A stretch of DNA of 64,000 nucleotides, from contig BCJC01000001.1 of the NCBI GenBank assembly GCA_001600175.1, positions 1,258,065-1,322,064 of the forward strand. Reading direction: 5' to 3'. Both the position numbers and the translations under genes were made by a program. Positions 10,153-64,000 of the stretch are shown in pieces (the first letter of the stretch is position 1; every line of letters begins with the position of its first letter). Origin of the DNA: Erythrobasidium yunnanense (taxonomy: Eukaryota; Basidiomycota; Cystobasidiomycetes; Erythrobasidiales; Erythrobasidiaceae). Under the pieces are notes generated by a model. It had not been told where the DNA came from, did not search any database, and saw nothing but the letters and a program-made list of their open reading frames with translations.

Positions 10153-11938
10153 ATGAAGAGAGCTTTTCGCGATGCAGATACGCCTTGCAAACGGCAGCAC
10201 GTCGGTTCTGATAGCGACAGGACCTCGAAGCCGCTGCGCTGTCCGCGACCTCTGGGCAATCTGCTGCTGAGCACCGCAAGAAATGCTCGAAATTCTGGAC
10301 TGGGCAATCTGGCCATCCTTCCTGACGAGATCCTGGCTGCCATCTTCAGCGAACTGGATGCTATGGATGCTCTGCGATGTCAAGGAAGTAGCAGAGCTTT
10401 CTTTGCCTTTGCGACTATCGAAGCCCACTTCAAGCTCGCATACATCAAGCGCGCAAGAGGTACACTGTCTACCTGGAGAGGCTCGTGGAGAAGCACCTAC
10501 ATCCACGACTTTGTGAAGCCACCATCGGCGAACCAGCTGGACGCGCTACCTTCAGACTCGATTTCCATAGAGAATGTCTTTTCAGACGTCCTCTATCTCC
10601 CATATCTGGCCGCATGCTATGACTCCAACATAGTTACTTCTGCAAGTGCTTTTGCGAACAATATACTGCGAAGAGAGGGCAGAAAGATGGTCGCGGCCGA
10701 GCTAGGAGAGACACCCATGATCCTGACTGGTATGATGGACGATTGGGCAGCCATGTCATCTACGAGTGGGAAGAGATGGTCCTTAGCATCAATAGCTGAA
10801 CGCTATCCCGAGACCAGGTTCCGAGCCGAAGCTGTACTGGCAACAATGCAAGATTATCTGCAATATCACAACGATTGTCCCGCCGACGAGAGCCCTCTGT
10901 ATATCTTTGACGCCGACTTTGTCGAGAAGACGTGCAACAACGACGATGGAGCTGGTCTAGGTGCCGACATTGTCGTACCTTCCATCTTTGCGGATGATTT
11001 ATTCAAGGTGCTAGGGACCGAGAGACCCGACTATAGATGGCTAGTACGTGTATTCTATCACCAAAAAGACGGCACAGCTGATGGCTTACAACACAGATCG
11101 CTGGTCCCGCGCGGTCTGGGTCGACTTTCCATTGCGACCCTAACGGGACTTCGGCTTGGAATGCAGTAGTGACAGGGCGGAAGCTCTGGATACTATTTCC
11201 TCCAGATGCGATTCCCCCCGGTATTATAGTATCCGACGACCAGTCAGAAGTCGAGGCGCCGCTGTCCTTGGCCGAATGGATGCTCAACTACTATGCTCAA
11301 GCCAAAGCTCTGTATGGTCCCAGAGCAAAGGATCCACAGCATCGAGGCAAGATGCTTGAAGGCATATGCGAGGAAGGGGAGATCTTCTACGTCCCTTCAG
11401 GCTGGTGGCATTGTAAGCTGTTATTTCGCAGCCGTGGAGACGGGCTAGACAGCGCTGACAATGCTCTCTAGTGGTCGTTAATCTGGAAGCATCCATAGCA
11501 GTCACTCAGAACTTTGTCTCGCCGTCGAATCTAAGTGGCGTTCTATCTTTTCTGAAATATCGGCCTGACCAGGTGTCTGGCTTCAAGCTTCATTCTGCCG
11601 GACAAGAAAGTAAAGGCAACCATCTCAACGAGGCGAGACAAGAGTACTGCGGAGAAGAAGAAGACGAGACCGGAGGAGGAGCAGTCTATAGCCGATTCGT
11701 TGATGCTCTGACCAGGCACGATCCCGAGCTCTGCATGGAGGCCATGAAAAGACTAGCTCAGCTTGAATCACAAAAGATGCACAGCAAGCTGAACAGCAAG
11801 GACGCATCTCGATCCAAGGCAGACGGCAGCTTGTGGCATACAATGGTAGGCAAGGACAAGCCGGAAGTAGGCGAAGAGCAGTCATCAGGCTTCACTTTTG
11901 GCTTTGCCTTAGATGTGGAAGAAGGCGACGTGCTCTGA
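10153..11938 (+). CDS. F-box plus JmjC (cupin-like) dioxygenase protein
   Basis: Predicted 557 residues from exons 10153-11043, 11097-11412 and 11472-11938, in phase. An F-box-like segment lies at about residues 56-100 (LPDEILAAIFSELDAMDALR). A JmjC domain follows. Its Fe(II) ligands are visible as His309 and Asp311 in TFHCDPNGTSAWN and His402 in SGWWH, and the 2-oxoglutarate lysine is probably in TGRKLW. These are Fe(II)/2-oxoglutarate dioxygenases; F-box/JmjC proteins of this type occur in fungi and plants, near the JMJD6 branch. All metal ligands are present, so it is probably active as a protein hydroxylase or demethylase, with the F-box linking it to SCF ubiquitin ligase. The substrate is unknown. 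The C-terminal ~150 residues are charged and look disordered. Confidence 0.85.
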
Positions 11939-42346: not shown

Positions 42347-43745
42347 CTACCCTTCTGTTCTTGCATCTGATAATTTCTCGAGAAGCTTATTCAAACCTTC
42401 CGCCCTCGACCTTGATGCTCTGTATTTCGATGGTCGCCTTGATAGGGTCGCAGACTCCGTGTAAGATCCGTCGGACGCACTCGGCAGATCATAGGCACCA
42501 GCTGCATCCTGCGGGGATTTGCCTTTTGCATCGGGTCTTAGAGGCGATACCTCCTCTTCATCTGGACTCTGAAGTATAGAGTCTTCCGAGGCACTGTGCA
42601 CTCTCCTTATAGTACGCTGGCCACTTCGGTGGGGCTGCTCAAAGTATTCGTGACCGTCCAATATCTCCTCTTCGTCCTCTTCGCGAATCAGATCCGGCGT
42701 TGGCGGTAGCGAGCTTCGCGGACTCGAAGGTGCAGAGGAGTCGGGTGTACCAGCGCTGTTTCGCAAAGGAGAGGATCGTCTGCTCTGAGGTGGAGAAGCG
42801 GAGAAGGCGCTCGATAGAGAGGACGAGGAGCCTGAGCGTAAAAGAGGGCGTGCTCGTGAATCTCTGCCACGTGAAATAGTAGTGCTTGTCGATGCAGTAA
42901 GCGTGACGGGCGGTGAAGCTGGGTAGACTACCGACGGCTGCTTTTCGCTGCTCTTCGCAATACCTGCTGCGCGTGGCTCGTTTGCCCTCGAGGTTGATGA
43001 AGTAAAGAATGAACTGATGTAGTCCCGCCAGCCGAGTTCATGCTTCGATAGCTTGCGCTTCTTCTCCCAATCTGCGCGATATTTCTCGTATCCTCCCCTA
43101 TACGGCGCGCTTACTTTGGAGGAGAAGATGAGTTCGCCGCGTGGGTTTGAGGCTGGTGGAATAGGTGCGAGAGGAACAGACTGGCTGCGAGCGGTCCCTG
43201 AGCGGGGCGACGTCGAGCGGGCCGAGTTCTGATTGAGGGGCTGCGATTGCGACTGGCTCCGATAGAAGAGACGGAGAGGATTGAGTAGCGAGGAAGATGA
43301 AGATCTCTGCTTGGTGTTCAGATAGATATTGAAGTAGCGGAGTGCTCTGTTGGCTTGGGGCACGAACCTGTCGATCAATTGTCATCAGCTCCGCACGCGA
43401 TACCACGATGGTCCATACACACTTGTATGCATATGCTATCTTCTCAGAGTACACGCCAGTCGCAAAGAACAGGAGGAGGGTGACTAGGGAAATCAGGAGG
43501 AGGCCAGCGTTGATGACATTGGACGGGTCGCACGAGACCAGGTAGGCCAGCACAGCGATAGCAGCGACAAGGACACCGAGGAAAGCTTCGTACTTCAATC
43601 TTTGGCGGGACAAACGCATGGAATTGTGCTTGAGCCTTTCTTCGAAAACGAGCAAGTCGCGGTAGGCGGCTTTTGTGTTTGCGAGCGAGTAGTTGTAGCT
43701 GTTACTGCTGCCATTCTGCAGTGGATTGGCCCTCCGAGGAGGCAT
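42347..43745 (-). CDS. SPO7: Nem1-Spo7 phosphatase regulatory subunit Spo7
   Basis: Predicted 447 residues in two minus-strand exons, 43745-43423 and 43367-42347. The conserved core is YRDLLVFEERLKHNSMRLSR, then QRLKYEAFLGVLVAAI, with two close membrane helices (about residues 53-70 and 78-96). Spo7 holds the catalytic Nem1 at the ER and nuclear membrane, where the complex dephosphorylates the lipin Pah1 and so controls phospholipid versus triacylglycerol synthesis and nuclear shape. The C-terminal ~300 residues are Ser/Arg/Pro-rich and acidic, an extension far longer than the yeast core and probably regulatory. The first exon lies only 43 bp from the RCY1 start on the other strand. Confidence 0.87.
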
Positions 43746-43788
43746 CGCTACCTTGCACTTTCGACTTAGCCGTTTTGGCCTAAAGCCA
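43746..43788. promoter_or_regulatory. 43-bp gap between divergent SPO7 and RCY1 start codons
   Basis: The two start codons are only 43 bp apart if the ATGs at 43745 (minus) and 43789 (plus) are right. The RCY1 frame is open further upstream, into SPO7 exon 1, but without an ATG. Transcripts of the two genes must start within this gap or overlap each other. Confidence 0.55.
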
Positions 43789-46700
43789 ATGGACAAACGA
43801 TGGACAGCGTTGATACCGAAGAAACAGGCCACAATTCCCGCGAAATACATCAGCAAAGACACATATGCGAAGATTGGTGACCTCCCGCAAGCTGCTTGGG
43901 TCAAAATACTAGTCCTTGTCCCGGTCGCCGACGCTGCCAGGCTCGCAAGATGCTGCAGGAAGCTCGCTGCTCTACACAAGGATGAACGAGTATGGAATCC
44001 ACGACTTGACGCGCTCAGCTATGCCGGGCCGGTCACTTCGGATATCGAAGCTCTCGTCAGCAAGAGATCCCTCTACTATATCGACAAGAGCCAGCAGGCC
44101 GCTAGTAGGAACAGCATCGTTTCCGGAACTGGTCAAAGTAGTGCTATGTCCCCTCCATCAACCAGCCAGGCCAAGTTTGCAGCAGAAGAAACGCCAGATT
44201 TCTTTGGAGACTTTGTTGGCACTTCTTCCGCCAATCCACGCAACTCCATCTCCTTCAGCTCGATAGACCTTTCACAACCTCTTCCAGTCCCCAAGCCTGC
44301 GAAGCCGAATCGCAGGGAGGATGATCTGTTAATGCTCTTTGACGACGATGTGGAGGATATGGGCTTGGCGACCGCAAGTCCAGCTAAGAGCAATCGCCAG
44401 TCTACATACGCCAACAATAAGCGGAACTCTGTTCTGTCTTCCTCTGCAAAAGCAACTCAGCCAACACATTCGGCTTCTCCAGCACCATCGCACGATCTCT
44501 TCGCCGCATACTATGCCATACTCCTTCCCTTCTTTGTATCTTTGCAGACACAGACTACTTCGTCCCTCATCTTTACTTCGCATGCCTTGTCGGAGTCCCC
44601 TCTGGCTAGAGCTCGCCTACTTTCTACCCTTTCGCGCTTCCTGGCTCCCAATCTTGCACCTTCGCGCAGCATCACTACACTCTCGGTTGTTCGACGGAAT
44701 CTTCAATCGTCGATAGACTATTTCGAGGCATCTCTGCTGTCCTCGTTCGAGAAGGCAGTGGACGCGCACAATTACCCATCGATGCGCGATATTGCGCAAG
44801 CTTTGTTCAAGTTGACTGGAGGGCAATCTGTCGTTCAGATCTTTATCAACAAGGTTCCGCTATTCTACGAAGGCCAGACGCACGATCCGTTGCGAAATTT
44901 GACGAGTTCAAATATCGGGCCAGACGGCAATCCAGTGGATGGGATAGATTTTTCAGCAATGGACGGCTATATCAACTATATCTTGAGCGCTGTCAAGAAG
45001 CAGGGAACGGTCATTGGCAAAGTATTTCCAAAAGAAGAGGATGTTCTAGTAACTTTCGCGGAAAGGATAGCCGTGGATATCGTAGGTAGCAGTCGACACT
45101 CTCAACGCCCATAGCGCTGACTAGTCATTGTTCATAGCTGGACGACTATATTACACCTCTTCTATCCGCATCCCAGTCACTTACTCCACCTTTGTTCCTC
45201 CTGACCACCGCAGCGACATTCGGACAATGTAATCGGATAACAGATCAGATTATGCAAATAGCCACGGAGTACGGTCATACTGCCAAGGTTACCCGTGCGA
45301 AGCTGGACGATATCAATTTCCGGCTGTTCGAGCTGCATATGACGGATTATTTGTCGGAAGAGATTGTATGGTGCAGAGACTTGCTCAAGGGTATCTGCAA
45401 AGAATGGGACAAGAAGGTAGGCTTCGCCTGTTCCAATAGCGCAGATATTAGCTGATGAAACTATTTGCCAGCTGGAAGAAGAGGCTGCCTCTCTCGACCC
45501 GCAATTCTTGTCTTCTGCCAATCCACAGCAAGTTAAGCGGAACGTGTTGGCTAGCTTCACCAAGGCTCTTCTGTTGCCTGTTACTATCGTCCCGAAGACA
45601 GTCGCTCTGTCTGTGAATGCGATAGCTGCAGGCGGTACCATGGCTTTCAACGCCATGACTGGCTCCTCCGCCGCCGCAGTGAACGGCAAAGTCAGCCCAT
45701 ATAATGGCAAGATGGTCTCGCCCACGCAAAGTACTGCGAGTCTGTCGTCTGTTACCTCGCCCAATGGCACAGTTAGCCATGCTCGCCAACGGACAATCAG
45801 TGCGACTGGGACCGAAGATAGCGGTCACCTTGTGCAAGGCGGCTTCCATATGTTGCTCAGCATCGATACTGCCATGCAGCTCGTGCAGGCCGACCGAGAA
45901 TGTCTGAAGCGGATACAGACCTTCAATGGCTATAGTGAGTAGTCGATTATGAGCCCACTTGGCGGACAGCTGACCCTCTTAAACAGCCGGGAAGATGGGA
46001 GCAAAAGTTAAGAGCACCATTGAGGAGGTCTTCATCATTTTGTGCCAGACCCTATCCGACAGTCATCTTCAGCCAGCTTTCGTGCGGTAAGCGGAGCCCG
46101 GCCTACCCTGCGTGTCTTGCATGACGCAGCTAAAACATGTTTTCTCAGAGCTACTAACAAGATGAGCTTGTACAAGCCTGCCGACCATGCGGTCGACGAT
46201 AGCGTTGCGCCGCTTGTGCAATTCTTCGAGCTTGTCCACATTGGCGATACCATCGCTCAGATGGTGCAAGTATACTACGATCGAGAGCTGGTATGTATTG
46301 CTATCTTAGCCAAGAAGGGTACCCTGCTGAGGTCGAGCACAACGTAGGCCAAATACGTTGACCGGAATGATTTCTTATCTCTGGTCATCCGCGAAAAGAA
46401 GAAGTTTGAGAATACGCTTGACGAAAGCGTCGCATCAGGCTTGAATGCAGGTGTCAATATATTAATGACGCAAGCAGAATACATCCTGCAGACACAGCAG
46501 GATCCGCGGGACTTCTGTCCTGGAGAACAGCCTGATTCGAGGCGACCGTCTGTACAGTCTTTGGCTATAGTGACAGATATCGAGGGCCCTACGAAGGCTG
46601 CAGAAGCTGTCGTGGAGTGTTTGAGAAGCCATTGCGATATGCTGAAAGGCAGTACCGACAAAGCGATTCTGGAGATTTTCCATCAGGAAGTCGGTCTTCG

Positions 46701-47046
46701 ACTACACACCATCCTACTCAAGCACCTGAAGAAGTCCATCGTGTCTATCCCTGGAGGCTTTCAGCTCATAGCCGACCTGAACCTCTATACAAGTTTCATC
46801 GGCAGTCTAAAAGTGCCGATAGTCATGCCTTACTTCGTAGCCCTGAAGATGGCAGCAAATGTCTTCATTATAGACTCTCCTAAGGATCTAGGCAATATGG
46901 CGAGAGATCTGGATCGATACGAAGGGACGTTGCGGATTGAGGACGTCATGGAGATGGTTCAATGTCGGACAGATTGGAAGAAGATAGAGAAGCAGGTGGA
47001 GAAGGAGGTCTTTGGGTTCAAGGCGGAGGATTGCATTATTCAGTAA
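43789..47046 (+). CDS. RCY1: Recyclin-1 (F-box, Sec10-like, CaaX)
   Basis: Predicted 991 residues from exons 43789-45081, 45138-45416, 45472-45934, 45987-46086, 46149-46290 and 46348-47046. An F-box lies near the N-terminus (IGDLPQAAWVKILVLVPVAD). The rest resembles the exocyst Sec10/recyclin family: FEKAVDAHNYPSMRDIAQAL, LDDYITPLLSASQSL, GGFQLIADLNLYTSFI and the end KKIEKQVEKEVFGFKAED. The protein ends CIIQ, a CaaX prenylation box, as in yeast Rcy1. Recyclin acts with Skp1 in endocytic recycling of membrane proteins such as Snc1. The start at 43789 is the first ATG in the open frame. Confidence 0.9.
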
Positions 47047-52296: not shown

Positions 52297-54111
52297 TTAT
52301 CTAGGATTAACAGGCATTGCTTGTCCACCATATTTTATGCAGCCGGGACAATGTGTCCTACAAGACTTGTTGGGGCATACTGGAGACGGTTGGTTGAGAC
52401 AATGGATCGCCGACCCAAAGCACTTCCTAGGGTTATGAAGAGCAGCCATTGCCGACGAAGGCAGTAGATGTGAAGCTGCTTGTGTCATGATACCGTGGTA
52501 AAAGTCTTCGAAATGATCCTTCCGTTGCCCGTCCACCTCGTCCAAATAGGTCTGATAATCGATCTCCTTGGTCGCAAGATAGTCTAGCCAGGTATGAATC
52601 GAAGTGTTGCGGAGATTCGGCTTTTGCTGTAGCAGGGCACGCGCACGGCGTTTTTTGTCTGTCGGGAAGGATGCTAGCCGTCTCTCGAGCTCCGCCTTGA
52701 CTTCCAGTATATCGATGAAATGCTCAACGAAGGCTGCCGCATAATCATTGGTCGCGACAGCACCGTGCTTGTGGACTTGGTTGGCCAAAAAGTAGAGCTT
52801 GCTAGCCTTCAAGCGACTCGCGCATTCGACTGCAGACAGTACTAAATCCCGACTTCCTTTGTAAGCCTGAAGTATCGCGTAATAAGGCGATGTACTGGTG
52901 TTGTGAATCTGTGCGAAGCCCTCCCTCTTCGCAAGCTTATGAAGCTCTGTCTTCTTCGCGTCTCTTTCTTTCTGCATGTCCTGCTTCTGCTGCTTGATGG
53001 CATCCTTAGCGCGACGTTTCTCCTCCCATGCAAAACGCTTCGCCTCTTTGCGTTGTTTCTTGTTCATCTTCTTGGCAGTGCTATGACTGGGTGCCTCATG
53101 AGCTTGTAGGCGCCGTGTACGCTTTCTCTGCATGATTGTAGGAGTTGGTAGCTGTCCCAGCGCGCTACGATATAAGTATTCTTTATGCCATCTTTTCTTG
53201 CGGTGCCTCCAGTTGTACGGTAGACGATTAAGAGTACCTCGCTTGGCACCGAGGGTAATCGCGTCTGCCTCGATGATGCAGTGGTGCATGGGCGAAGTCC
53301 ACTGACACTCCAAGCAGACGACTGCCCAATCTGGACCTTCAGGCCATACTGTTCCGAACGATGCAGTCGTAGGTTGAAGACATCGCATGCAGCGTCTCTT
53401 CAGGATGCGGATGTAGCTTTCTCGCCAAGTCTTGCACCCTCTTGCTCGAAGCTGTCTCGTTGGCTCTACGGCGCGACAACGCAGCCACCATAGATGATCT
53501 GCGCCTGGCCCGTGGTTGAGCGTGTTGTACCATTGGCGAGAAACTTGCTTCATGCACAGGATGGCATACGGATCACGATTAAGATGGGAGAGGATGAGAT
53601 AGCGGACTTCCAAGGGCAGACTGCTCAGCTTGTCCTGAACGCTAGGGCGTCCCACAAGTAGAGCTGATGATCCGTTGCCGGTTGCCAGATCTTCTAGGCC
53701 ATCGTCTTCCTCGTCATCGCTTACGGGCGCGACTGCTTCCTCTTCTGCCGGTTCCTCCTCCTCGGACTCTTCATCACCGTCAAGCTCGTCGTCTTGTGCG
53801 CGACTGTCCTCCTCGTCGTCTTCCAAGCCTGAGCTTTGCGAACCAGAATAATCGGCCTCAGAATCTGCGTGATCTTCGTCGTCGGGAGCAGCATCTTCAG
53901 AGTCGGATGAGATGTCGTAGCATTGAATGTTTCGTTTGGCTCTTTCGCGCTCCTCTTCTGCTGCTGCGTCTTTGCCTGCGAAATATTGGATGGCACTTTG
54001 CGCGCTCTGTGCTGCCGTTCGCACTGCAACATCGGAAGTCAGGATCGCCTGTTTCTTCGCTGTCGACGTGTCATTCAGCACAAAGATGCACTTACAAGGA
54101 CGAGCAGACAT
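52297..54111 (-). CDS. array gene A: long F-box/Cys4 protein
   Basis: Most divergent and longest member of the array. Read with the family intron (54095-54024, donor GTAAGT) it gives 580 residues; unspliced, the frame stays open for 604. The N-terminus is very acidic. An F-box lies near LSSLPLEVRYLILSHLNRDP. Next comes RGCKTWRESYIRILKRRCMR with CMRC, then WPEGPDWAVVCLEC, forming a CxxC...CxxC zinc-type motif. A long Lys/Arg/Glu helix follows (KKMNKKQRKEAKRFAWEEKR), then WLDYLATKEIDYQTYLD and a Cys-rich tail (CPNKSCRTHCPGC). F-box proteins bring substrates to SCF ubiquitin ligases; the target is unknown. It may be the founder, since its sequence is furthest from the other copies. Confidence 0.78.
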   Translation of the reverse strand: MSARPCKCIFVLNDTSTAKKQAILTSDVAVRTAAQSAQSAIQYFAGKDAAAEEERERAKRNIQCYDISSDSEDAAPDDEDHADSEADYSGSQSSGLEDDEEDSRAQDDELDGDEESEEEEPAEEEAVAPVSDDEEDDGLEDLATGNGSSALLVGRPSVQDKLSSLPLEVRYLILSHLNRDPYAILCMKQVSRQWYNTLNHGPGADHLWWLRCRAVEPTRQLRARGCKTWRESYIRILKRRCMRCLQPTTASFGTVWPEGPDWAVVCLECQWTSPMHHCIIEADAITLGAKRGTLNRLPYNWRHRKKRWHKEYLYRSALGQLPTPTIMQRKRTRRLQAHEAPSHSTAKKMNKKQRKEAKRFAWEEKRRAKDAIKQQKQDMQKERDAKKTELHKLAKREGFAQIHNTSTSPYYAILQAYKGSRDLVLSAVECASRLKASKLYFLANQVHKHGAVATNDYAAAFVEHFIDILEVKAELERRLASFPTDKKRRARALLQQKPNLRNTSIHTWLDYLATKEIDYQTYLDEVDGQRKDHFEDFYHGIMTQAASHLLPSSAMAALHNPRKCFGSAIHCLNQPSPVCPNKSCRTHCPGCIKYGGQAMPVNPR

Positions 54112-54313
54112 CGAGGCAAGCTGCTCAGGTCATGATGGGTGAAAGAAGATGAACGCGATCGTAGTTGCTGCGATTGACAATTAAGCTACAAATAGTGTAA
54201 GTACAACGTCAAGTTGGACTGCTCAAGGTTCTTCATGTCTGCGAAAGGCCCGCTATGCCTGCTGTCCTATAAATACGCTATAGATAGCCTGAGACGACTG
54301 TAAAGTCGTTTGT

Positions 54314-55652
54314 CTACATGAGATAATAGTCGTCCGAGTCATTTCCATGTCCATGTCTTTCGCATGGCCCAGTGCAGCAATCACCGCATTGATCTTGCCA
54401 ACATGTGTATGCTGGCAGATTGGTGCAACTTCCGTTCGCACATTTCCTGATCACAGGCCGGAGGACGCAGAACTTGTCGAGATAGTCTTCCTGTTCTAGC
54501 TCCTTCAGACAGAGGGAGTCTAGCCAGCTTCGGCCTTGCAGGGCTCTAAAGGAGTCCCATCTAATTGGACGACTTGGCAGTACGCCTAAATTGACGTCGT
54601 TGTATTCTGCAGACCACCTCTTCCTGTCCGTCGCATAGAGGACGGGCAAGCTGACGAGAACAACCAGGATGGATCCGTACAGTGCGATAATTTCTTGGCC
54701 GGCAAGTGTCGAAATCGACTCCTTGTTATCGACTGACGCAGTGAAGAGTTGCTGCAGATGCCGAGACCATCGCAGAAGGTCTTTATCTCGGCTGTCGACA
54801 ATGGCGGCACGCAATTGCTCTTGATCGCCTTGAAAGCTTTCTACCAGGAGCGCTAGCTTGCGCTTCGTCTCTGCTTGCACCTCTGCGATTTTTTTGTCGA
54901 TACCACGCCGCCAGTAGGTTCGCCACGGGTAGGAAGCTTCTTGTAAGGAGGGGAGAGTAGCGAGTTCGGTTCGAGAAAGCCCCGCCAAGCGATCGTGGTA
55001 GTCTGCAGCTGAGATCGTTTTCATCTCAAAGTAGCGTTTAATTTGGGCACAGCTGCCGCATATCATAGCCCAGGCTGGTCCCTCGTCCCAGATACCACCG
55101 AACCGGCGAAACGGCTTTGGCTTAGTCTTCTCCTGACAGCTGATGCATCGCATATGCATGAGTTTCATCCAGCTCTGGTACCACGTACTACAGCCTCGAC
55201 ACTTCGCCTTTGCGCCAAATTGCTTGCACTTTTTCTCCCATTCGGCTTCTCGTCGGGCGGTCAATGTAACATACCACGTCTTTGAAGTTCGCATGAGCTG
55301 TAAGACCTCATAGTCCTCTGGTTCCAACTGTGCGATGATCTCCGTAAGTATTTCGAGAGGAAGAAAGCGAAATGGGTCGGTAGAATGAGCGGGAAGACCA
55401 GGCTGGATGGCAGCGTGAGCAAGCTTTATGCGCTTCGCTGCGGTACATTGTAAATAGGAGGTGTAGATCTGTTGCTGTGTTGTGACTGCCTGCTTCAGCT
55501 CGTCAACGGTCACGCCTTGGTCGTCGGCAGCGGTCGACGTAATAGCTTCTCTAGCCGCTAAAGCAGACTTTCGAGCTGTGCATAAGATAACAATTCAGCT
55601 TTGATGCCTGAAAAGCTGCCAATGTTGACTTACAGGGTCGTGGAAGAGACAT
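54314..55652 (-). CDS. array gene B: F-box/Cys4/Cys-tail protein, intact
   Basis: Exons 55652-55634 and 55575-54314 give 426 residues. The first exon encodes MSLPRP and a phase-1 intron follows, as in gene D. Domain order: SRKSALAAREAI helix; LPAHSTDPFRFLPLEIL leading into an F-box (about 77-120) with LQLMRTSKTWYVTLTAR; Cys4 motif with Cys150, 153, 179 and 182 (RCISC ... CGSC); helical middle with SFQGDQEQLRAAI; LYATDRKRW; SWLDSLCLKELEQEDYLD; tail with Cys385, 390, 398, 403, 406, 407 and 411 and His414/416 (CWQDQCGDCCTGPCERHGH). The tail looks metal-binding. No known full-length family is recalled. It is the best reference copy for the array. Confidence 0.82.
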
Positions 55653-56472
55653 GGGGGCCAGACCAGGACAAGCGCGAGACAGACCAAGGCGTCAAGATCG
55701 TGAAGAGACGAAACAATATGGGATCGCAGCGATATGAGCTGACGTTGAAGCTCTTTGAGACAGAAAGATTGGATTGCAGGATCGGCGTTTGTTTCGATGG
55801 TCCCAAATTTGAGGTTGCTAACGCGTCTTTTCCAGTCTGAGATCTGCTATACGAAGCTGCGAGCTGCTTTGGCAATGTCGTACTAGCGCTTGAAGCTGAT
55901 TCAGTCGACAAGTTGCATTGCTTGGCCGAGAAACAAAGCGCGTTGCTTGTCGCAGGCATTACAGCCTCAAGCAGAGTGATAGGCAGCAGCAACGAAAGAC
56001 TCTAATTTATACAAGTACCTCATGCTGGACGAGCAGCGAGACTCCGGCAGAACTGACAGACGGCCTTATCCGGCTTATCGCGACTTCGGGTATCGCGAAG
56101 GCGGAGGCTACTAAGGTATGCACAACCTTTGTGCACATATAGCAAGGGATTCCCTTGCTGACATTTGGAAAGCGCACGACGCTTGCTTGCATTACTCCAG
56201 AATAATCTGGAAGCCGGTTCATTGCGCAGGGGGTTTTTTATTCGACGCAGCGATAACGCAGAGCCCTTGCGAGCATTTGGGATGAGGTGGTCACGCCCTA
56301 GTTTAGGGCTACCCTTGTTGGACTGGAGCGAGAGGGTTCTACTGAGATGGATTTCCTCGCTGATGTCTGGTTGGCATGAGTGATGCGACCAAGAGATAAT
56401 CTGCATGACTTCCAGCAGCATTTTTCCCCGGAAGTACTGTACTTCTAGGGTCTAAGGCATTTGCCAGTCCCG
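55653..56472. other. intergenic between array genes B and C
   Basis: 820 bp holding the gene B promoter and the 3' side of truncated gene C. No coding frame with family features was seen, so the lost 3' half of C does not appear to be lying here in recognisable form. Confidence 0.45.
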
Positions 56473-57327
56473 CTACTGAATCTCCTTGCATCTGTCAGAG
56501 TCTGGCTTTGCCCTGAGTTCTGCAATTCTTTCCTCAATCGAAGGGCGCCAATAAGCTCTACGTGGATCGCGCATGTCGGAAACGACCAAGCAGGGAAGTG
56601 CATCGAGATCGCTTTGCGATAAGCCGGTTGGGATATCGCCTGGGAATCTGCCAGTGGTTGTTAGATTGCGAAAGTAGCTGAAGTAGCCATTGTATATATT
56701 GCGACAATCATGGCAGCATAATGCCCAGGAAGGACCGTCTGGCCAGATATGCCCGAAGCGGATGGAGGTCTTGGCTTTACAGCTAATGCATCTCTTGTGC
56801 ATCAGCTTGAGCCAGGTAAGGAACCAAGTAGCACAATCTTTTGCCATTCGCGTCCTCCGCATCTCCCTGCATTTGTATTCCCACATTTCCTCGAGGTCTG
56901 TAGTCAGGCTGACGCGCCATCTTCGCGAGATTCGCATGAGCTGCAGCATCTCGTATCCCTCTGGATTGAGATAGTCCAGTATCAGGTTGAATGCTTCGTA
57001 TGGAATGGAGCGAAATGGAACAGGAGAGGTTATCGGGTACGGGACAACGGTCGCCTGCACAGAGGCGCATCTGGCGCGTTTGCAGGTGGCCAGTATGATC
57101 GCATCGCCATCACCAGACAAGCTGTCCTTCTTGCTCATATCCAAGATGTCCAAGTTGACGCAAGTTGACGCAGCCGCCCGTCCCGATATTAAGGCCAGCT
57201 CGACCACGGTAGGCGTCGACGATAGATTGCCTAGCGAGCTTGCGTCTGCAGGAATTGCGGCCTGGTGGTCTTTCTGCGAGTCTTGCTCAAGCGAGAAGTT
57301 GGAGATGACGAAACCGAGTAAAGCCAC
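56473..57327 (-). pseudogene. array gene C: truncated F-box/Cys4 paralogue
   Basis: The open frame spans 57327-56473, but the first ATG in it is at 57138 (225 residues from there). The F-box (PFRSIPYEAFNLILDYLNPE, then LQLMRISRRWRVSLT), the Cys4 motif (KRCISCKAKT ... ALCCHDC) and YWRPSIEERIAELRAK are present. The protein then ends, so the whole second half (SFxGDQ, WLD and Cys tail) is missing. No MSLPRP-type first exon was found upstream. A 10-bp tandem repeat (CAAGTTGACG twice, 57151-57170) lies inside the N-terminal coding part, and because it is not a multiple of three it may have shifted the frame. It could still make a short protein. Confidence 0.6.
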
Positions 57328-57494
57328 AATCAGATCCTGGCCCTCTTTTCGTTCACGTCCTACCGAGATGCAGGGAAAGCAATAGCATTTGTGTGCAAGT
57401 ATCGGCTACCTTTACAACGGCTCGACAGTTAGAAGAAAAGGAAACTCGAGAAGGAAACTCGAGATAGTATCGGTGTTGATCAAATAGAAACAGT

Positions 57495-58845
57495 CTAGCG
57501 TCCATGTCTCACGCAGGGACCGCGACAGCAACGACCACATCGAGACAGCGGACACTCCTGAGCCGGCGTATTGTCGCAGAGCCACCCAGAACCACGATCA
57601 AACCCACAGCTTCCAGGTTTCGGATGGGACACGCATGTCGCGTCAAGGAAATCCTCCTGACTAAGCTCCTTCAGGTACATGCAGTCGAGCCAGTCCATTC
57701 CCTCGAAGTCTTTGTCCGGCTTGGATCTCAAGCTAACGGGCGGCATAAATGCTAGTCGGGCATCGTTGAGAGGCAGCGGCCACCTTGATCTGTCTGTTGC
57801 GTGTAGATTCGGTAACATCCCTAAGATATCTTCGATTGAGGTGTGAAGTTCGATGATACTTGTACCCAGGTCGAGAGGAATTGAAACCTTCTCATCGACA
57901 TGCTGGGCGATCAGCTCTTGAAGTCTCTTAGATCGCTTGAAACTAGCATCGTTACGGGTGTCGATCACCGCCCGGAGCTGTACTGAATCGCCTTCAAAGC
58001 TAGTGAGCAGGAGCTCTCGCTTTCGCTCGGTCTCATCTTTCCTTCGCTGGGCCTCTGCTCTCAACTGTGCGAGTTTAAAATCAAGAGCCGGACGCCAGTA
58101 TACTCGGTGGTTTGGCAAGTAGCGTCTCCGCCCAGGGAGGGACGACAGGGTGGCCAAATCAGAGGTGGAAAGTCCTACGATGCCTTCGCCGTAAGGCCCG
58201 TTACTCAGTTCCATAGTTTGAAATATGGAGCCACAGACTGATTGACAGCTGTCGCATACGAGAGCCCACGAAGGAACTCCAGCACAGAGAGCCCCGAAAG
58301 CGACCGAAGTTGTGAATGTAGTTTTGCTCTGACAGCCAAGACACCTTGTGTGCATCATCTTCAGCCAGCTACTGAACCGGTGCTGCATCCTCTTGCCTTC
58401 ATCTTCGCGCCCATTGCCTTGCACTTCTTCTCCCACTCGCCTTCGCAGCGGCTTGTAAGAGCAACACGCCACGTCTTTGACGTTCTTATCAATTGGAGGA
58501 TGTTATAGTTCTGGGGGTCGAGATACGAGACGATCTCTAGGAGGATCTCGAGAGGAAGATAACGGAAAGGGTCGGTCAAATGGGCTGGAAGACCAGTTTG
58601 CTGGACTGCATGGGTGACCTTGCCTCGTTTTGTGCCTAGATAGTCCGTATCGACTTCGGAGCTGCGCTGCTTCTTGCTAATATCGCCTGCAGCTTCGACA
58701 GCCAAGTCTTGCTCAGAAACGGCCGTCGACGCTATTGCGTCTCGAGCGGCCAGGGCGGCCTTTCGAGCTGCGAAAATGATTACAGAGTCAGTAATAACCT
58801 CATATAACTGGATACACTAGCCTTACAAGGTCTGGGAAGCGACAT
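57495..58845 (-). pseudogene. array gene D: F-box/Cys4/Cys-tail paralogue with one frameshift
   Basis: Exon 1 is 58845-58827 (MSLPRP, same phase-1 intron as B) and exon 2 starts at 58767. The F-box part (LPAHLTDPFRYLPLEILLEI, LQLIRTSKTWRVALTSR) is in one frame and the rest (FSSWLKMMHTRCLGCQSKTT onwards) in another. By comparison with GCSTWYQSW in B and GSWYHTC in F, the Trp codon near 58377-58381 has lost one base (ACC GG TTC). Downstream everything is intact: ALVCDSC, SFEGDSVQLRAVI, LHATDRSRWP, DWLDCMYLKELSQEDFLD and the tail CPLSRCGRCCRGPCVRHGR. It is either a young pseudogene or a one-base sequence error. Confidence 0.72.
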
Positions 58846-59374
58846 GACCGAAGGGCAGGTAGGACGACCAAGCCAGGGTGTGAGTCGGATTGAGCGAGAT
58901 AAGACAGAACGTCAGGCAAGCAGAGAGAGATCTTGTGCTTTGTGTAAGGCTTATTGTAAAGCCAAGCCTAGTGTCGTATCTGCGCGAAGTCCAGCTGTCC
59001 GTTGGTTTTTGCTTCCGAGTCCGACAAGGTGTCCAGATGCGAGCGTTCCAGACAGCAGCTCGCTTGCCCTGAAGACTTGTAGATGCGGCACTTAGACCGC
59101 AAGGGACGATGGCTTCATCACAAACCCGAGCTACGGCTACGCGAGGGTGGGCGTTTGGAGGGGATGTAAGGTGCTCCAATTGAAGGTTCTACATGACAAC
59201 ATTGTAGTAATTGTCTAGAAACCGGGCTAACAGTGATAACACAGTTGGCTGTAGAGCGAACCATAGCCGAAAGCTTGCAGTGATGCTTTTCCCTGAGCAT
59301 ACTTAGACTGTAGCGTCTGAGCCATATCAGTCAAATGCCGGCATTTATTGTCTGCCCTTTCCATTCATTGTGCT
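58846..59374. other. intergenic between array genes D and E
   Basis: 529 bp containing the gene D promoter and the 3' end of E. No family coding sequence, repeat or RNA gene recognised. Confidence 0.45.
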
Positions 59375-60626
59375 CTAGCTGTCCTCTTCGGTAGGCGCAC
59401 AATTCGCATCTAGGAATTGTTCGAATGTCACTTGGCCGCAGGCAAGTAGGTCCATCCAAGTTGGTTTCCCCTCCAAAGGATCCATGCACATTACCCTCGT
59501 GTGTGCAGCTGAGGTTGAAGATAAAGTTGCTCTCGTATACTTCTGAGGCCACCTCTGTCTGTCTGCTGTAAACATAGCAGGCAGTCTCTCTGCCGTGTCC
59601 TTGATAGATGTATATAGCTGAACGATGTCATCACCGTCCTTCTTTAAGATGAATAAGTGGTTGTCAACGCTCTCTTGCAGAAGCCGTTCATAGATGTCGG
59701 AGGAATTGAAATACACCCTTTCCCCGGATGGCAATTGCGTCTCGCAGAAGGACTTGATCTCCCTGGTAGCTGCAGATCAGCAGCTCTAGATTGTGCAGTC
59801 TCTCTGCTCGAAGATCTGCGACTTTCTGATCGATGGCAATGCGCCTATAGACTCGCGAATTAGCCGGATACAGATTCCCTCGAGGAAGGTCCTGAGCCGA
59901 GAGTGAGGGAAGGCCTTCAAGATCGTTCCGAGACAGTCCTAAAACAGGACTGTCATCTTGGGGCAGTGTGACCACTGATAGTCCAAAGTAATCTGACGTC
60001 TGGGCGCAGCAACAGCACAGGAGAGCCCAGGCTGGTCCAGCTGGCCAGATAGCTCCAATGGGTATCGAGTTGAGCGGTGGTATGACGTGCGTCAGGCAAT
60101 CGATGCATGTCGTGTGCATCTGTTCCAACCAGGTATGAAACCACATGCCGTAGCCTTCAAGCTTCGATCTTCTGCCATTCATCTGGCATAGCTTCTCCCA
60201 CTCTGCTTCTCGCCTGACAGTCAGCGCAACGTACCACGTTTTGGACGTTCGCATAAGCTGGAGAATCTGATATTCTTTGTATTTGTACTCGAGATGTAAG
60301 AATATCTCGTCGAGAATCTCGATGGGAAGAAGACGAAACGGGTCCGTCGAGTGAGGCGGAAGACCAATCTGAATTGGAGGTGGTGGTGTCGCAGTGCGCT
60401 GAGCTGACAGCAATTTGTATTGCTTATTGGCTTCAGCGTGAGCGCTCCAGTGTAGATCACCAGCATAATGGACAGACTGCACGCTGCCGCTAATGCATGT
60501 CATTCTAGACTTAGGGGAATCTTGCTGGGCCAATGCGACGCCCTTGCGCTTTAGCAGGGCCGGGCTGAAGGTCGCAGCTGATGGCACGCGCATCAGTTGG
60601 CGGAGTCTGGAACTGCTCTTGCTCAA
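59375..60626 (-). pseudogene. array gene E: F-box/Cys4 paralogue, frameshifted and tail-less
   Basis: The upper part (60626-59688) encodes LPPHSTDPFRLLPIEILDEI, LQLMRTSKTWYVALTVRREA, the Cys4 motif (TCIDC ... LLCCCC) and SYQGDQVLLRDAIAIRGKG, then runs out. The remainder continues in another frame (59734-59375) with YFNSSDIYERLLQESVDNHL, MFTADRQRWPQ and TWMDLLACGQVTFEQFLD. A one-base shift lies in the overlap, 59688-59734. The end (LDANCAPTEEDS) has no Cys tail. The open frame begins without ATG; the first ATG is at 60593, and no MSLPRP exon was found. Two defects suggest an older pseudogene than D. Confidence 0.62.
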
Positions 60627-60948
60627 CGAGCGGGCTTGCTCTACAGATATAGTCCCAGCAGGTCAGGCCAGAGCAATCGTTCTGATCCGCAATCTGCAGA
60701 GCTCAGAGCAGAAAATAGCGATGTTTGTCTGGTGATGGTAGCATATGATCGTGGTAGCTTGATGGGTGAGATGGAAATCACAGTTCCAGGCAATTCCAGT
60801 TGGGTCGTAGGAGACAAGCGGATTGCACGATATTCAGATAAGACATAAGAGGGTCTACATTTCAATTGAAGGCAGATATATAGAGTGAGAAAGGTAGGTA
60901 CACCTCAATAAAAGAAGAAACTAGCGGCAAGCCCTTTCCGTCATCAGG

Positions 60949-62328
60949 TCAGAACTTCCGGCTATTTGCCTTCAGATGGCTACTGACTGGACAAGGCCCC
61001 CGACAACAATATTTACACTTCCTCTGTTTGCAGCCGAATGAGAACCAGTTAGGACAAGGCACGCTGCGTGCAATGCCGTATAGAGTAGTCATACTCTGGC
61101 ATGCTCCCGGAATGGGTATTATGGGCGCAAAATTTGCATCGAGGTATTGCTGTCGTGTAAACTCGCCATTGACAAGGAGGTCGAGCCAAGATGCAGTTGT
61201 CTTCCTGTTAGAGAGAGTAGCCTTGACGCGCTTTGTCGGAGACGAATAGATGCTGCTTTTGCGAAAAGGCTGAGGCCATCTCTCGCGGTCTGAAGAATGT
61301 AAATCTGGCAGCTCGGCTGCAATCCCCTCGATGATTCTGTATATCTTGATAAGCTCGTCCGCGCGCTCCCCCAAGATAAACGGCCTGTCGACGACGTATT
61401 GCTCAATGATTTGTTTGAAGACTGCGGAGTCTCTGAAACAAGGCTGAGTACGAGCCAGGATAGCGTCGCGCAGGAGGCCTTGGTCGCCTTGAAAGCTGGA
61501 GATGAGCAGATCTAGCTTACGCTGACTTTCTGCTTTGATCTCTGCAGCCTTTCTGCTGACAGCGATGCACCAGAACACCCGAGAGTATTTCAGATGCGAA
61601 GCAAGCGATGGGAGGGCTTCCAGATCGAATCGAGATAGTCCTTTTATGCGGTGTTGACCTCCCGGTATTGCTAGGACAGTCGTAGCAAAGTAGTCGGAGG
61701 TGTGCCTGCAGTGTTTGCACAGTAAAGACCATGCCGGTCCATCTGGCCAGATAGCTCCGATACGCATCGATCGCGATGGCGCAACGCAGCCCAGACAGCT
61801 GACGCATCGTGTGCGCAACATTTTCAGACAGGTATGATACCATGATCCGTAAGTTTTGAATGGTCGTTCAGCTCCCATAGCTCTGCATGCCTCTTCCCAC
61901 ACACCGTCCAACCTGACCGCCAGCGCGACATACCATGTCTTCGAGGTTCGCATAAGCTGGAGCACTTCATAGACTTTGTAGTCGAGGCGCTTGATGATTT
62001 CGCTGAGGACATTCAGCGGGAGGCGACGAAAGGGATCCGTCGAGTGAGGAGGAAGGTCGGTCTGGATGACTGGCGGCGCTCTCATCGGGCGCTGCATCGG
62101 CCTTGTCTCGAATTGGAGAGTCTCCATACGATTGACGCAGTCCAAGTAGTCTTTATCGTTGCAGGAGTGCGGGACGACGGGGTGGATATTGCCATTTTGT
62201 TTGTAGAAGTCGCCCGCAGACAGCAAACCCTGTCTTGGAGGTCGTCTTTATGCAAGTCGACCCAATTTATCGGTCAGTGATTGCTGTTGAAGCTGCTGCT
62301 TCCACGTACGCAGCTGCCGGGCAGACAT
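60949..62328 (-). CDS. array gene F: F-box/Cys4/Cys-tail protein, intact
   Basis: The main exon frame is open 62226-60949. A likely first exon starts at ATG 62328 (MSARQLR) with an intron to about 62238; the exact junction is uncertain (donors GTACGT or GTGGAA). Domains: DLPPHSTDPFRRLPLNVLSE F-box lead, LQLMRTSKTWYVALAVR, GSWYHTCLKMLRTRCVSCLG and LLCKHC Cys4 motif, SFQGDQGLLRDAILAR, LHSSDRERWPQ, SWLDLLVNGEFTRQQYLD, and tail CPNWFSFGCKQRKCKYCCRG followed by PCPVSSH. All family modules are present in one frame, so this is one of two clearly whole members besides A. Confidence 0.76.
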
Positions 62329-62782
62329 GTCAAACGCTGGTGAGGCCAATGCGAATGTGTTTGTCGCGGATGGGGCAGAGAAGCAAGACCAGACAGAAGA
62401 AGATCATCTTTTATCGTAAGGAGTGGCCTGCGAGTCTTCTAGCAAAGCTTGTCGTATCATCAAGGAGAGGAGGCAAGATCATTCTCATCTTGAGGGCTAC
62501 TGCCAGAAGCTTGTTCGATTGCTCAAGCACTAGCGAGTCTTGTAGCAGCTTTCTTAAGGGAGAATAGAAAGCATGATTAGAGCAGGTAAGTTACATGGTG
62601 CGGAAGGAAGCCCGGCAAGGTACACAGCGGAAGCAGAATGCAGTTTAGCGGCCACCTAATAGTAGATACACATCATAGAATCTCTAGCTTAATGTATCTA
62701 TGTTGTCGTTCCTGATGTGGTTGCGTCTGTCGAGCACCGCGTCTACCTATAGCTTCATGGAAATCAACGAGAGAAGCGAGAA
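62329..62782. other. intergenic between array genes F and G
   Basis: 454 bp with the gene F promoter and the 3' end of G. No coding family sequence or RNA gene recognised. Confidence 0.45.
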
Positions 62783-64000
62783 TTACGACTTCGTGTAGAA
62801 GCTCGGATTACAGTATTCATCCAAGAAGGCTTCTTGCGTGACCTTCCCGAGATGAATCAAGTCGAGCCAAGTCAAATGAACCGTATCAATCCCCAATCTT
62901 CTCTGCGCCTTGCCCAGTGGCATAGCTCCCAGGCAGCTTCTAGGTAACGCATCGGACCATCTCCTCGGGTCTAATGCGTGTAGGTGCCGTATTTTTGGCA
63001 GCAACTCTTTCAGACTGTCGCATAATTTGATGATTTTGGCGCCTGTTTCGGGAGAGATCGAGGTCTGGTAGTGGGTCGACTGCCACAAAAGCGTATTAAA
63101 GAGAGCAGAGCATCGAAGGTCCGACCCAGGTGAAGTGACTATGCAACGGACTCGATCTTGTATGCCGACCAGACTGGCCAACAACTGGCGATATCTCCGC
63201 TCCTTCTCCACCCTCATCTCTTCAGCCTTCCTCCACTCGGTGGGCTTCCAGTATGCAACTTTAATTCGGCTGCCAGGGAAAGACACTGGGAATGAAGGGA
63301 CCTCATTCATGACGAGTTGAGGCGGGCTGTTTGGGAAGGATGCGTCGGCCATGAGGGGCGATGAGCGCTCAAAGCAAAGTCCATCAATGTATGAACCATA
63401 TACACACGAATGACAAAGCTTCGCCCAAGCCGGACCATCGCGAAGCCATAGTGAGCCCAGGGGATACGATTTGAGTATTGTGGACTGGGTGCAGCGAAAG
63501 CACCTATCATGCATGAGGTTGACCCAAGTATGGTACCAAGTAGGACAGCCACCGTTTAACCTCTCTGCGTCTATAGTTCTGCACTTTTTCTCCCATTGCC
63601 GTTCTAGCCCTCGGGTCAGAGCCATGTGCCAAGTCTTGGAGACGCGCATGATCTGTAAGAGATCGTAATCTTGGATTGGAAGGTTTCCGACAATGTTGAG
63701 CAGGATCTCTAGCGGAAGACGGCGAAAAGGATCCGTTGAATGAGCTGGTATAGCAGGCTTGAAGGCGATATATGCTAGCTCCTCGCTTTGCTTATGAGTC
63801 TCAGAGGCCGTAGCATTGCTGCCATTGAGATAGCAAGCTTTTGAGATCTGGACATCGTCGCAGCACTCCGTCTCGAATCTTGCGGCTCCTGGCTTTGCGG
63901 GTAGATCCAGCGGCGAGTCTCCTGATGCTGTACGATGAGACAGAGCCAGTTAGAGTTTTGGGTCACATCAATCATACGTAAATCCAAGATACGTACGCGC
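62783..64000 (-). CDS. array gene G: F-box/Cys4 paralogue, partial at the right edge
   Basis: A long exon, 63927-62783, is in one frame. It opens ASGDSPLDLPAKPG, passes KPAIPAHSTDPFRRLPLEIL and LQIMRVSKTWHMALTRGLER, the Cys4 motif (RCFRC ... KLCHSC), LHALDPRRWSD and TWLDLIHLGKVTQEAFLD, then stops at NPSFYTKS without a Cys tail. An intron with donor GTACGT and acceptor CGTACAG (63996-63928) separates it from the last 4 nt of an upstream exon at the window edge. The SFxGDQ block is diverged (LVGIQDRVRCIV). The missing tail parallels E; whether this is loss or a tail-less subfamily cannot be told here. Confidence 0.7.

Follow-up and report, generated by a model that had tools for sequence, protein, structure and literature searches.

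The window, a stretch of 64,000 nucleotides that corresponds to C1:1258065-1322064 (contig 1) of a 20.9 Mb genome assembled in 10 contigs, harbours seven homologous gene copies between positions 52297 and 63949, all of them on the minus strand and named A to G starting with the copy nearest the window end (Table 1). A genome search with copy F recovers each of its neighbours, with best matches at E values of 2e-72 for B, 2e-60 for D, 2e-58 for C, 4e-54 for A, 2e-40 for E and 9e-16 for G, values that rule out a chance likeness between the copies; the identity of the other six to copy F amounts to 27-42%, with C, D and E being compared by their partial frames. A family-profile search found no further family copy in the 9 kb beyond A. 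The next long open reading frame (ORF) on that side (L030:1850-4993, plus strand, 1048 codons) encodes Ig-like He_PIG repeats (PF05345, E 7e-25) and is of a surface-protein type. The genome contains intron-bearing genes, and Spo7, a Sec10-like protein and Rad14 are among the proteins that it encodes, features that are consistent with a fungal origin.

Table 1. Positions of the array copies, their relatives and other F-box loci (plain numbers are window positions; C, contig)
Feature	Position	Strand	Content and state
Copy A	62786..63949	-	Open frame, 388 codons; F-box, Cys4 (x25), D..RW, WLD/FLD; no Cys-rich tail
Copy B	60952..62247	-	Open frame, 432 codons; in-frame ATG at 62127 upstream of the F-box; all motifs and Cys-rich tail
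Copy C	59378..60662	-	Split by a single frame break into 59691-60662 and 59378-59776; Cys-rich tail absent
Copy D, predicted first exon	58827-58845	-	Splice prediction
Copy D	57498..58816	-	Split by a single frame break into 58364-58816 and 57498-58502; Cys-rich tail present
Copy E	56476..57405	-	Only an F-box that stays below Pfam cut-offs and Cys4 (x21); frame stops short of the C-terminal half
Copy F, predicted first exon	55634-55652	-	Splice prediction
Copy F	54317..55594	-	Open frame, 426 codons; all motifs and Cys-rich tail
Copy G	52297..54111	-	604 aa; N-terminal part acidic, then an F-box that stays below Pfam cut-offs and Cys4 (x21); on the C-terminal side a long basic insert, WLD/YLD block and Cys-rich tail
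Contig-6 relative	C6:1325610-1326701 (L028:3610-4701)	- (on L028)	Open frame, 364 codons
Contig-3 relative	about C3:102580-103870		In-frame stop between the F-box and Cys4 regions
F-box/XPA-like locus L054	about C3:2113487-2114399 (L054:1171-2083)	- (on L054)	F-box ORF (PF12937, E 2e-7), then Cys4/XPA_C-like ORF
Other tandem F-box clusters (at least five)	C1 2.62 Mb; C1 3.29-3.31 Mb; C4 1.14 Mb; C5 0.98-1.01 Mb; C5 1.42 Mb (L031, L032-L033, L034-L035, L036, L037)		

A first-pass annotation of this DNA had described seven same-strand genes with one architecture. The seven homologous minus-strand copies and their shared motif order are confirmed by the present analysis; they do not amount to seven intact genes, as an uninterrupted frame spans the homologous region in A, B, F and G only, one frame break occurs in each of C and D and E stops early, and the sharing of motifs is uneven over the copies. 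The element present in all seven is a pair of cysteine knuckles, CxxC-x(21-26)-CxxC (hereafter Cys4), spaced by x25-26 in A, B, C, D and F and by x21 in E and G. The motifs W[LM]D and [FY]LD occur in six of the seven copies (not in E), LQ[LI][MI]RxSKTW and D..RW in five (in neither E nor G), and P.HSTDPFR in four (A, B, C and F), with the variant PAHLTDPFR in D and nothing corresponding in E and G. SFxGDQ or a near form is found in B, C, D and F, while G has merely AYKGSR at this point and the regular-expression match of copy A, which falls elsewhere in the protein, was not counted. The Cys-rich tail is limited to four copies (B, D, F and G).

Searches with F, G and the copies on contigs 3 and 6 together return the same set of at least nine genes, that is, the seven of the array and the two relatives, and this number is a lower bound, since the genome searches score the best candidates only. 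The contig-3 gene is found by F at an E value of 0.003 and by G at 1e-11; both off-array relatives have the x21 spacing. Three candidate introns (51, 60 and 102 nt) could remove the in-frame stop of the contig-3 gene, none of the three with a branch-point match. As a query, this gene has an extra, weak match at C1:1602447-1602641 (E 0.015), located over its coiled-coil part, which was not counted as a family member. The C-terminal part of the contig-6 relative contains a zf-NPL4 match below the cut-off (residues 299-331, E 0.007).

In a core alignment of all nine copies, in which the row for D is joined from its two frame pieces, the four cysteines and an inner G, P and W between the CxxC pairs are invariant throughout, and the next cysteine column is conserved in seven of the nine. 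These genes constitute a family with a common core of an F-box followed by CxxC-x(21-26)-CxxC with inner G, P and W, and the earlier proposal that the copies have more in common than a generic F-box is borne out by the motifs and by the invariant residues. In the tree of the core, the pairing of B with C (support 96) and of G with the contig-3 gene (89) stands out, with the remaining splits being weak (27-41). This pattern hints, short of proof, at an older origin of the G-like genes with the short spacing and at a local expansion that gave rise to A-D and F.

Several of these genes may begin with a very short exon that is spliced to the main frame; the calls are predictions from sequence, and alternative splice sites are listed alongside them. 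Copies F and D have in common a predicted first exon of 19 nt (MSLPRPS) with a phase-1 intron of 58-59 nt, copy A has a predicted first exon of 25 nt (L030:1061-1085), nearly all of it past the window edge, with an intron of 69 nt, and the contig-3 gene becomes readable with a predicted first exon of 10 nt. The search yielded no candidate first exon for B, C and E, and ambiguous ones for G and the contig-6 copy.

The state of the interrupted copies bears on the history of the array. In both C and D, homologous stretches in two frames abut, and the family motifs persist on either side of the break, which indicates that the breaks are either recent or errors of the assembly. That they are assembly errors, and that six or seven copies are truly intact, is a possibility to which we give somewhat less than even weight: the abutting pieces and their flanking motifs speak for it, but young pseudogenes would look alike, and E is shortened regardless. 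The frame of E ends after the stretch that follows Cys4. A tblastn search of the intergenic gaps gave no convincing match (best E 0.033), neither to extra or decayed copies nor to the C-terminal half of E, and the idea that this lost half persists in other frames was rejected on these grounds.

Synonymous divergence (NG86 dS) is finite in seven of the 35 pairs listed, at 1.61-2.51, one of these seven being meaningless as it compares the two halves of C, and is saturated in the other 28; a 36th pair, with fewer than 80 codons, was left out of the set. Because dS is finite only at such values and otherwise saturated, the array copies are old, with synonymous sites near or past saturation, and a recent tandem burst, from which low synonymous divergence would be expected, was rejected. 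The earlier annotation had pointed out that F-box families in fungi frequently expand and decay fast. Decay is indeed visible in the broken copies C, D and E, whereas the age of the copies (dS 1.6-2.5 or saturated) and the two relatives on other contigs speak against the speed. It could be argued that the array is a relic drifting to loss, in which the remaining open frames are without function, since three of the seven copies are broken or shortened and three of the seven are devoid of the Cys-rich tail. We regard this as distinctly improbable, as the core is invariant in all nine genes and A, B, F and G, four copies of the seven, stay open over about 400 codons despite near-saturated synonymous sites, which would speak for selection. 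In the same direction, pN is smaller than pS in all 35 pairs listed, although this is an outcome that the alignment step favours and the set includes forced pairs of non-matching halves.

No entry of Pfam, NCBIfam or the PDB covers the Cys4 core or the tail, and as far as these libraries go, the earlier statement that no named family has such an order of elements holds. Pfam returned nothing over a cut-off for the core and the tails, with DUF6510 over the Cys4 region remaining far under it (E 0.12 in copy E and 0.14 in the contig-3 copy), and NCBIfam gave two noise rows only for six proteins. Among PDB sequences, the family profile retrieved a single row, the F-box region of FBXW8 (E 0.37), and copy B nine rows, the best of which is an aldolase (E 0.06). 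Foldseek returned no row at E 0.001 or less, either among the 49 rows for the full model or among the six PDB rows for the core model, and a scan of viral_contigs with the core of copy F found no relative. As regards published work, the portion of a Macrophomina survey considered here reports no F-box gene cluster and names LRR, WD40, ankyrin and ZnF-C2H2 among the F-box partner domains (PMC7991009); in the corresponding portions of two other papers, PF00646 counts range from 3 to 43 over ten genomes (PMC4469406) and the F-box genes of Cryptococcus are listed (PMC9781138). The combination of F-box and Cys4 is not described in these portions of the three papers. The family thereby offers a searchable signature, namely an F-box and then CxxC-x21-26-CxxC with inner G, P and W, the module of which is unnamed in the libraries searched.

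F-box duplication is common in this genome, as judged from at least five further tandem clusters of other types (Table 1), and at least 32 F-box matches, each over a Pfam cut-off, were found genome-wide. The Cys4 pattern occurs in none of the 24 ORFs (21 distinct) listed for the other clusters and for single F-box loci, and with no family-profile match among 2720 ORFs, the other clusters were rejected as members of the family. The window itself encodes another F-box-like protein outside the array family (10153-11169, plus strand; PF12937, 27 bits, over the cut-off). It also contains two ORFs with Sec10_HB matches (43726-47043, plus strand) that are apparently one gene, the N-terminal part of which we take to look like an F-box, as in Rcy1.

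F-box proteins serve as the substrate receptors of SCF ubiquitin ligases. Since the genome encodes Skp1 (2 matches) and cullins (12 exon matches at 4 loci), an SCF role is the default reading, and in our judgement the array is probably an old tandem family that has decayed in part and whose members act as substrate receptors of SCF (Skp1-Cul1-F-box) ligases, with a module stabilised by zinc. The F-box scores over a Pfam cut-off in five of the seven array copies (A, B, C, D and F). AlphaFold models of the full protein and of the core (11 and 10 rows, mean pLDDT 70.7 and 72.5, pTM 0.51 and 0.64, respectively) show, at moderate confidence, the F-box helices and short strands round Cys4, and then a strand, two short helices, a strand and a long helix; the first PDB row that Foldseek returns for the core model is the Skp2 F-box in the Skp1-Skp2 complex, a weak match (E 4.4, prob 0.23, 43 columns). 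As a substrate receptor, a family member would dock on Skp1 with its F-box, and the Cys4 module directly behind it, which is likely to bind zinc judging from its invariance, would fold round the metal ion to form a rigid joint. The variable C-terminal half, with the SFxGDQ helix, D..RW and the WLD/YLD block, would recognise the substrate, in keeping with how F-box proteins work generally, and a second Cys-rich knuckle would be part of this half in four of the seven array copies. The SCF reading has observations against it, in that E, G and the contig-6 copy have F-boxes that score below the Pfam cut-offs and three of the seven copies are broken. A Pfam search at E values up to 1 found no known C-terminal substrate-binding domain (WD40, LRR, Kelch etc.) in nine array pieces. 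The suggestion of the earlier annotation that this is a lineage-specific family, perhaps one that senses or degrades variable targets, is conjectural.

A bolder interpretation emerges from the structural comparison. Among BFVD structures, the core model retrieves in first place a viral protein that bears the name RAD14 (E 5.6e-3, prob 0.97, TMq 0.36, rmsd 7.0), and the strand-helix-helix-strand-long helix order that follows Cys4 in the model resembles the order of strands and helices in XPA. Cys4 and the next segment (GLSRxDLxxLP, yWR and the long helix) might accordingly be a strongly diverged XPA/Rad14-like zinc/nucleic-acid-binding domain, and the tandem family might comprise SCF receptors that bring the ubiquitin ligase to DNA or chromatin, both of which we hold to be unlikely. 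Viral F-box proteins follow in BFVD rows 2-6, so that the match may be due to the F-box. Neither BFVD nor the PDB yields a row that attains E 0.001, and with the full model XPA itself (6j44) is found at rank 15 of 49 with prob 0.08, which is noise level. Literature searches for Clandestinovirus F-box proteins and, by those words, for a fungal F-box/XPA domain combination returned nothing.

In support of the XPA-like interpretation, the same genome probably encodes, apart from the array, an F-box protein that carries a domain resembling XPA. A search of the whole genome with XPA_C (PF05181) found Rad14 and this locus, L054, only, the second match lying at C3:2113487-2114170 with 18.5 bits, against a cut-off of 25, and including the stretch KKTEVKEVYGL. 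The XPA-like ORF is located directly downstream of an F-box ORF, and the two are probably exons of one F-box/XPA-like gene that is single-copy in the genome. A scan of viral_contigs with L054 found no relative. Against the Rad14/XPA profile, the Cys4-to-helix part of L054 scores 40.1, which none of 300 Cys-fixed shuffles reached, and it serves as a positive control. The array family can be aligned to L054 in register over Cys4 and GLSxxxLxxLP by local hhalign (E 0.021, in a comparison with that one sequence), and when a global alignment to the second exon is forced, E is 0.0014. However, that second exon alone produces a local alignment that is out of register, and the score of the core against L054 is reached by 160 of 400 and 105 of 300 Cys-fixed shuffles. 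Compared with the Rad14/XPA profile, the family attains only E 0.4 over 12 columns, and for the nine members taken one by one, between 7 and 105 of 150 shuffles, matched in composition and with the cysteines fixed, score at least as high. The lowest counts, 7 of 150 each, belong to A and to D, the latter tested by its C-terminal piece only, and the matches in question are short. No array member matches XPA_N or XPA_C in Pfam. With the profile and shuffle tests negative, an XPA link shown by sequence was rejected, and the likeness of the array family to XPA may be taken as a structural hint only. If true, the XPA-like interpretation would link ubiquitin ligases with a DNA-binding fold of the repair type; without it, the array would be a further example of how F-box genes duplicate and decay.

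Seen as SCF substrate receptors, the array proteins resemble the known F-box proteins (PF00646, PF12937) in the N-terminal F-box of five of the seven copies and in the presence of Skp1 and cullins in the genome, but instead of WD40, LRR or another curated partner domain they have the Cys4 module, and the Cys-rich tail of four of the seven is without a Pfam match over the cut-off. With XPA/Rad14 (XPA_N, PF01286; XPA_C, PF05181) the family has in common a C4 motif, a similar order of strands and helices in the models and a weak Foldseek likeness, whereas sequence-profile support is lacking and Rad14 itself is encoded separately in this genome, at C1:731641-731848. A third comparison is offered by an F-box clade with XPA_N/XPA_C matches that, in the part of PMC10810185 considered here, was set aside as remote XPA homologues and is said to be without conserved cysteines. 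This clade combines an F-box with a possible XPA-related region, and L054 fits the description as given in that part of the paper; the array family, unlike the clade so described, has no XPA match in Pfam and keeps all four cysteines.
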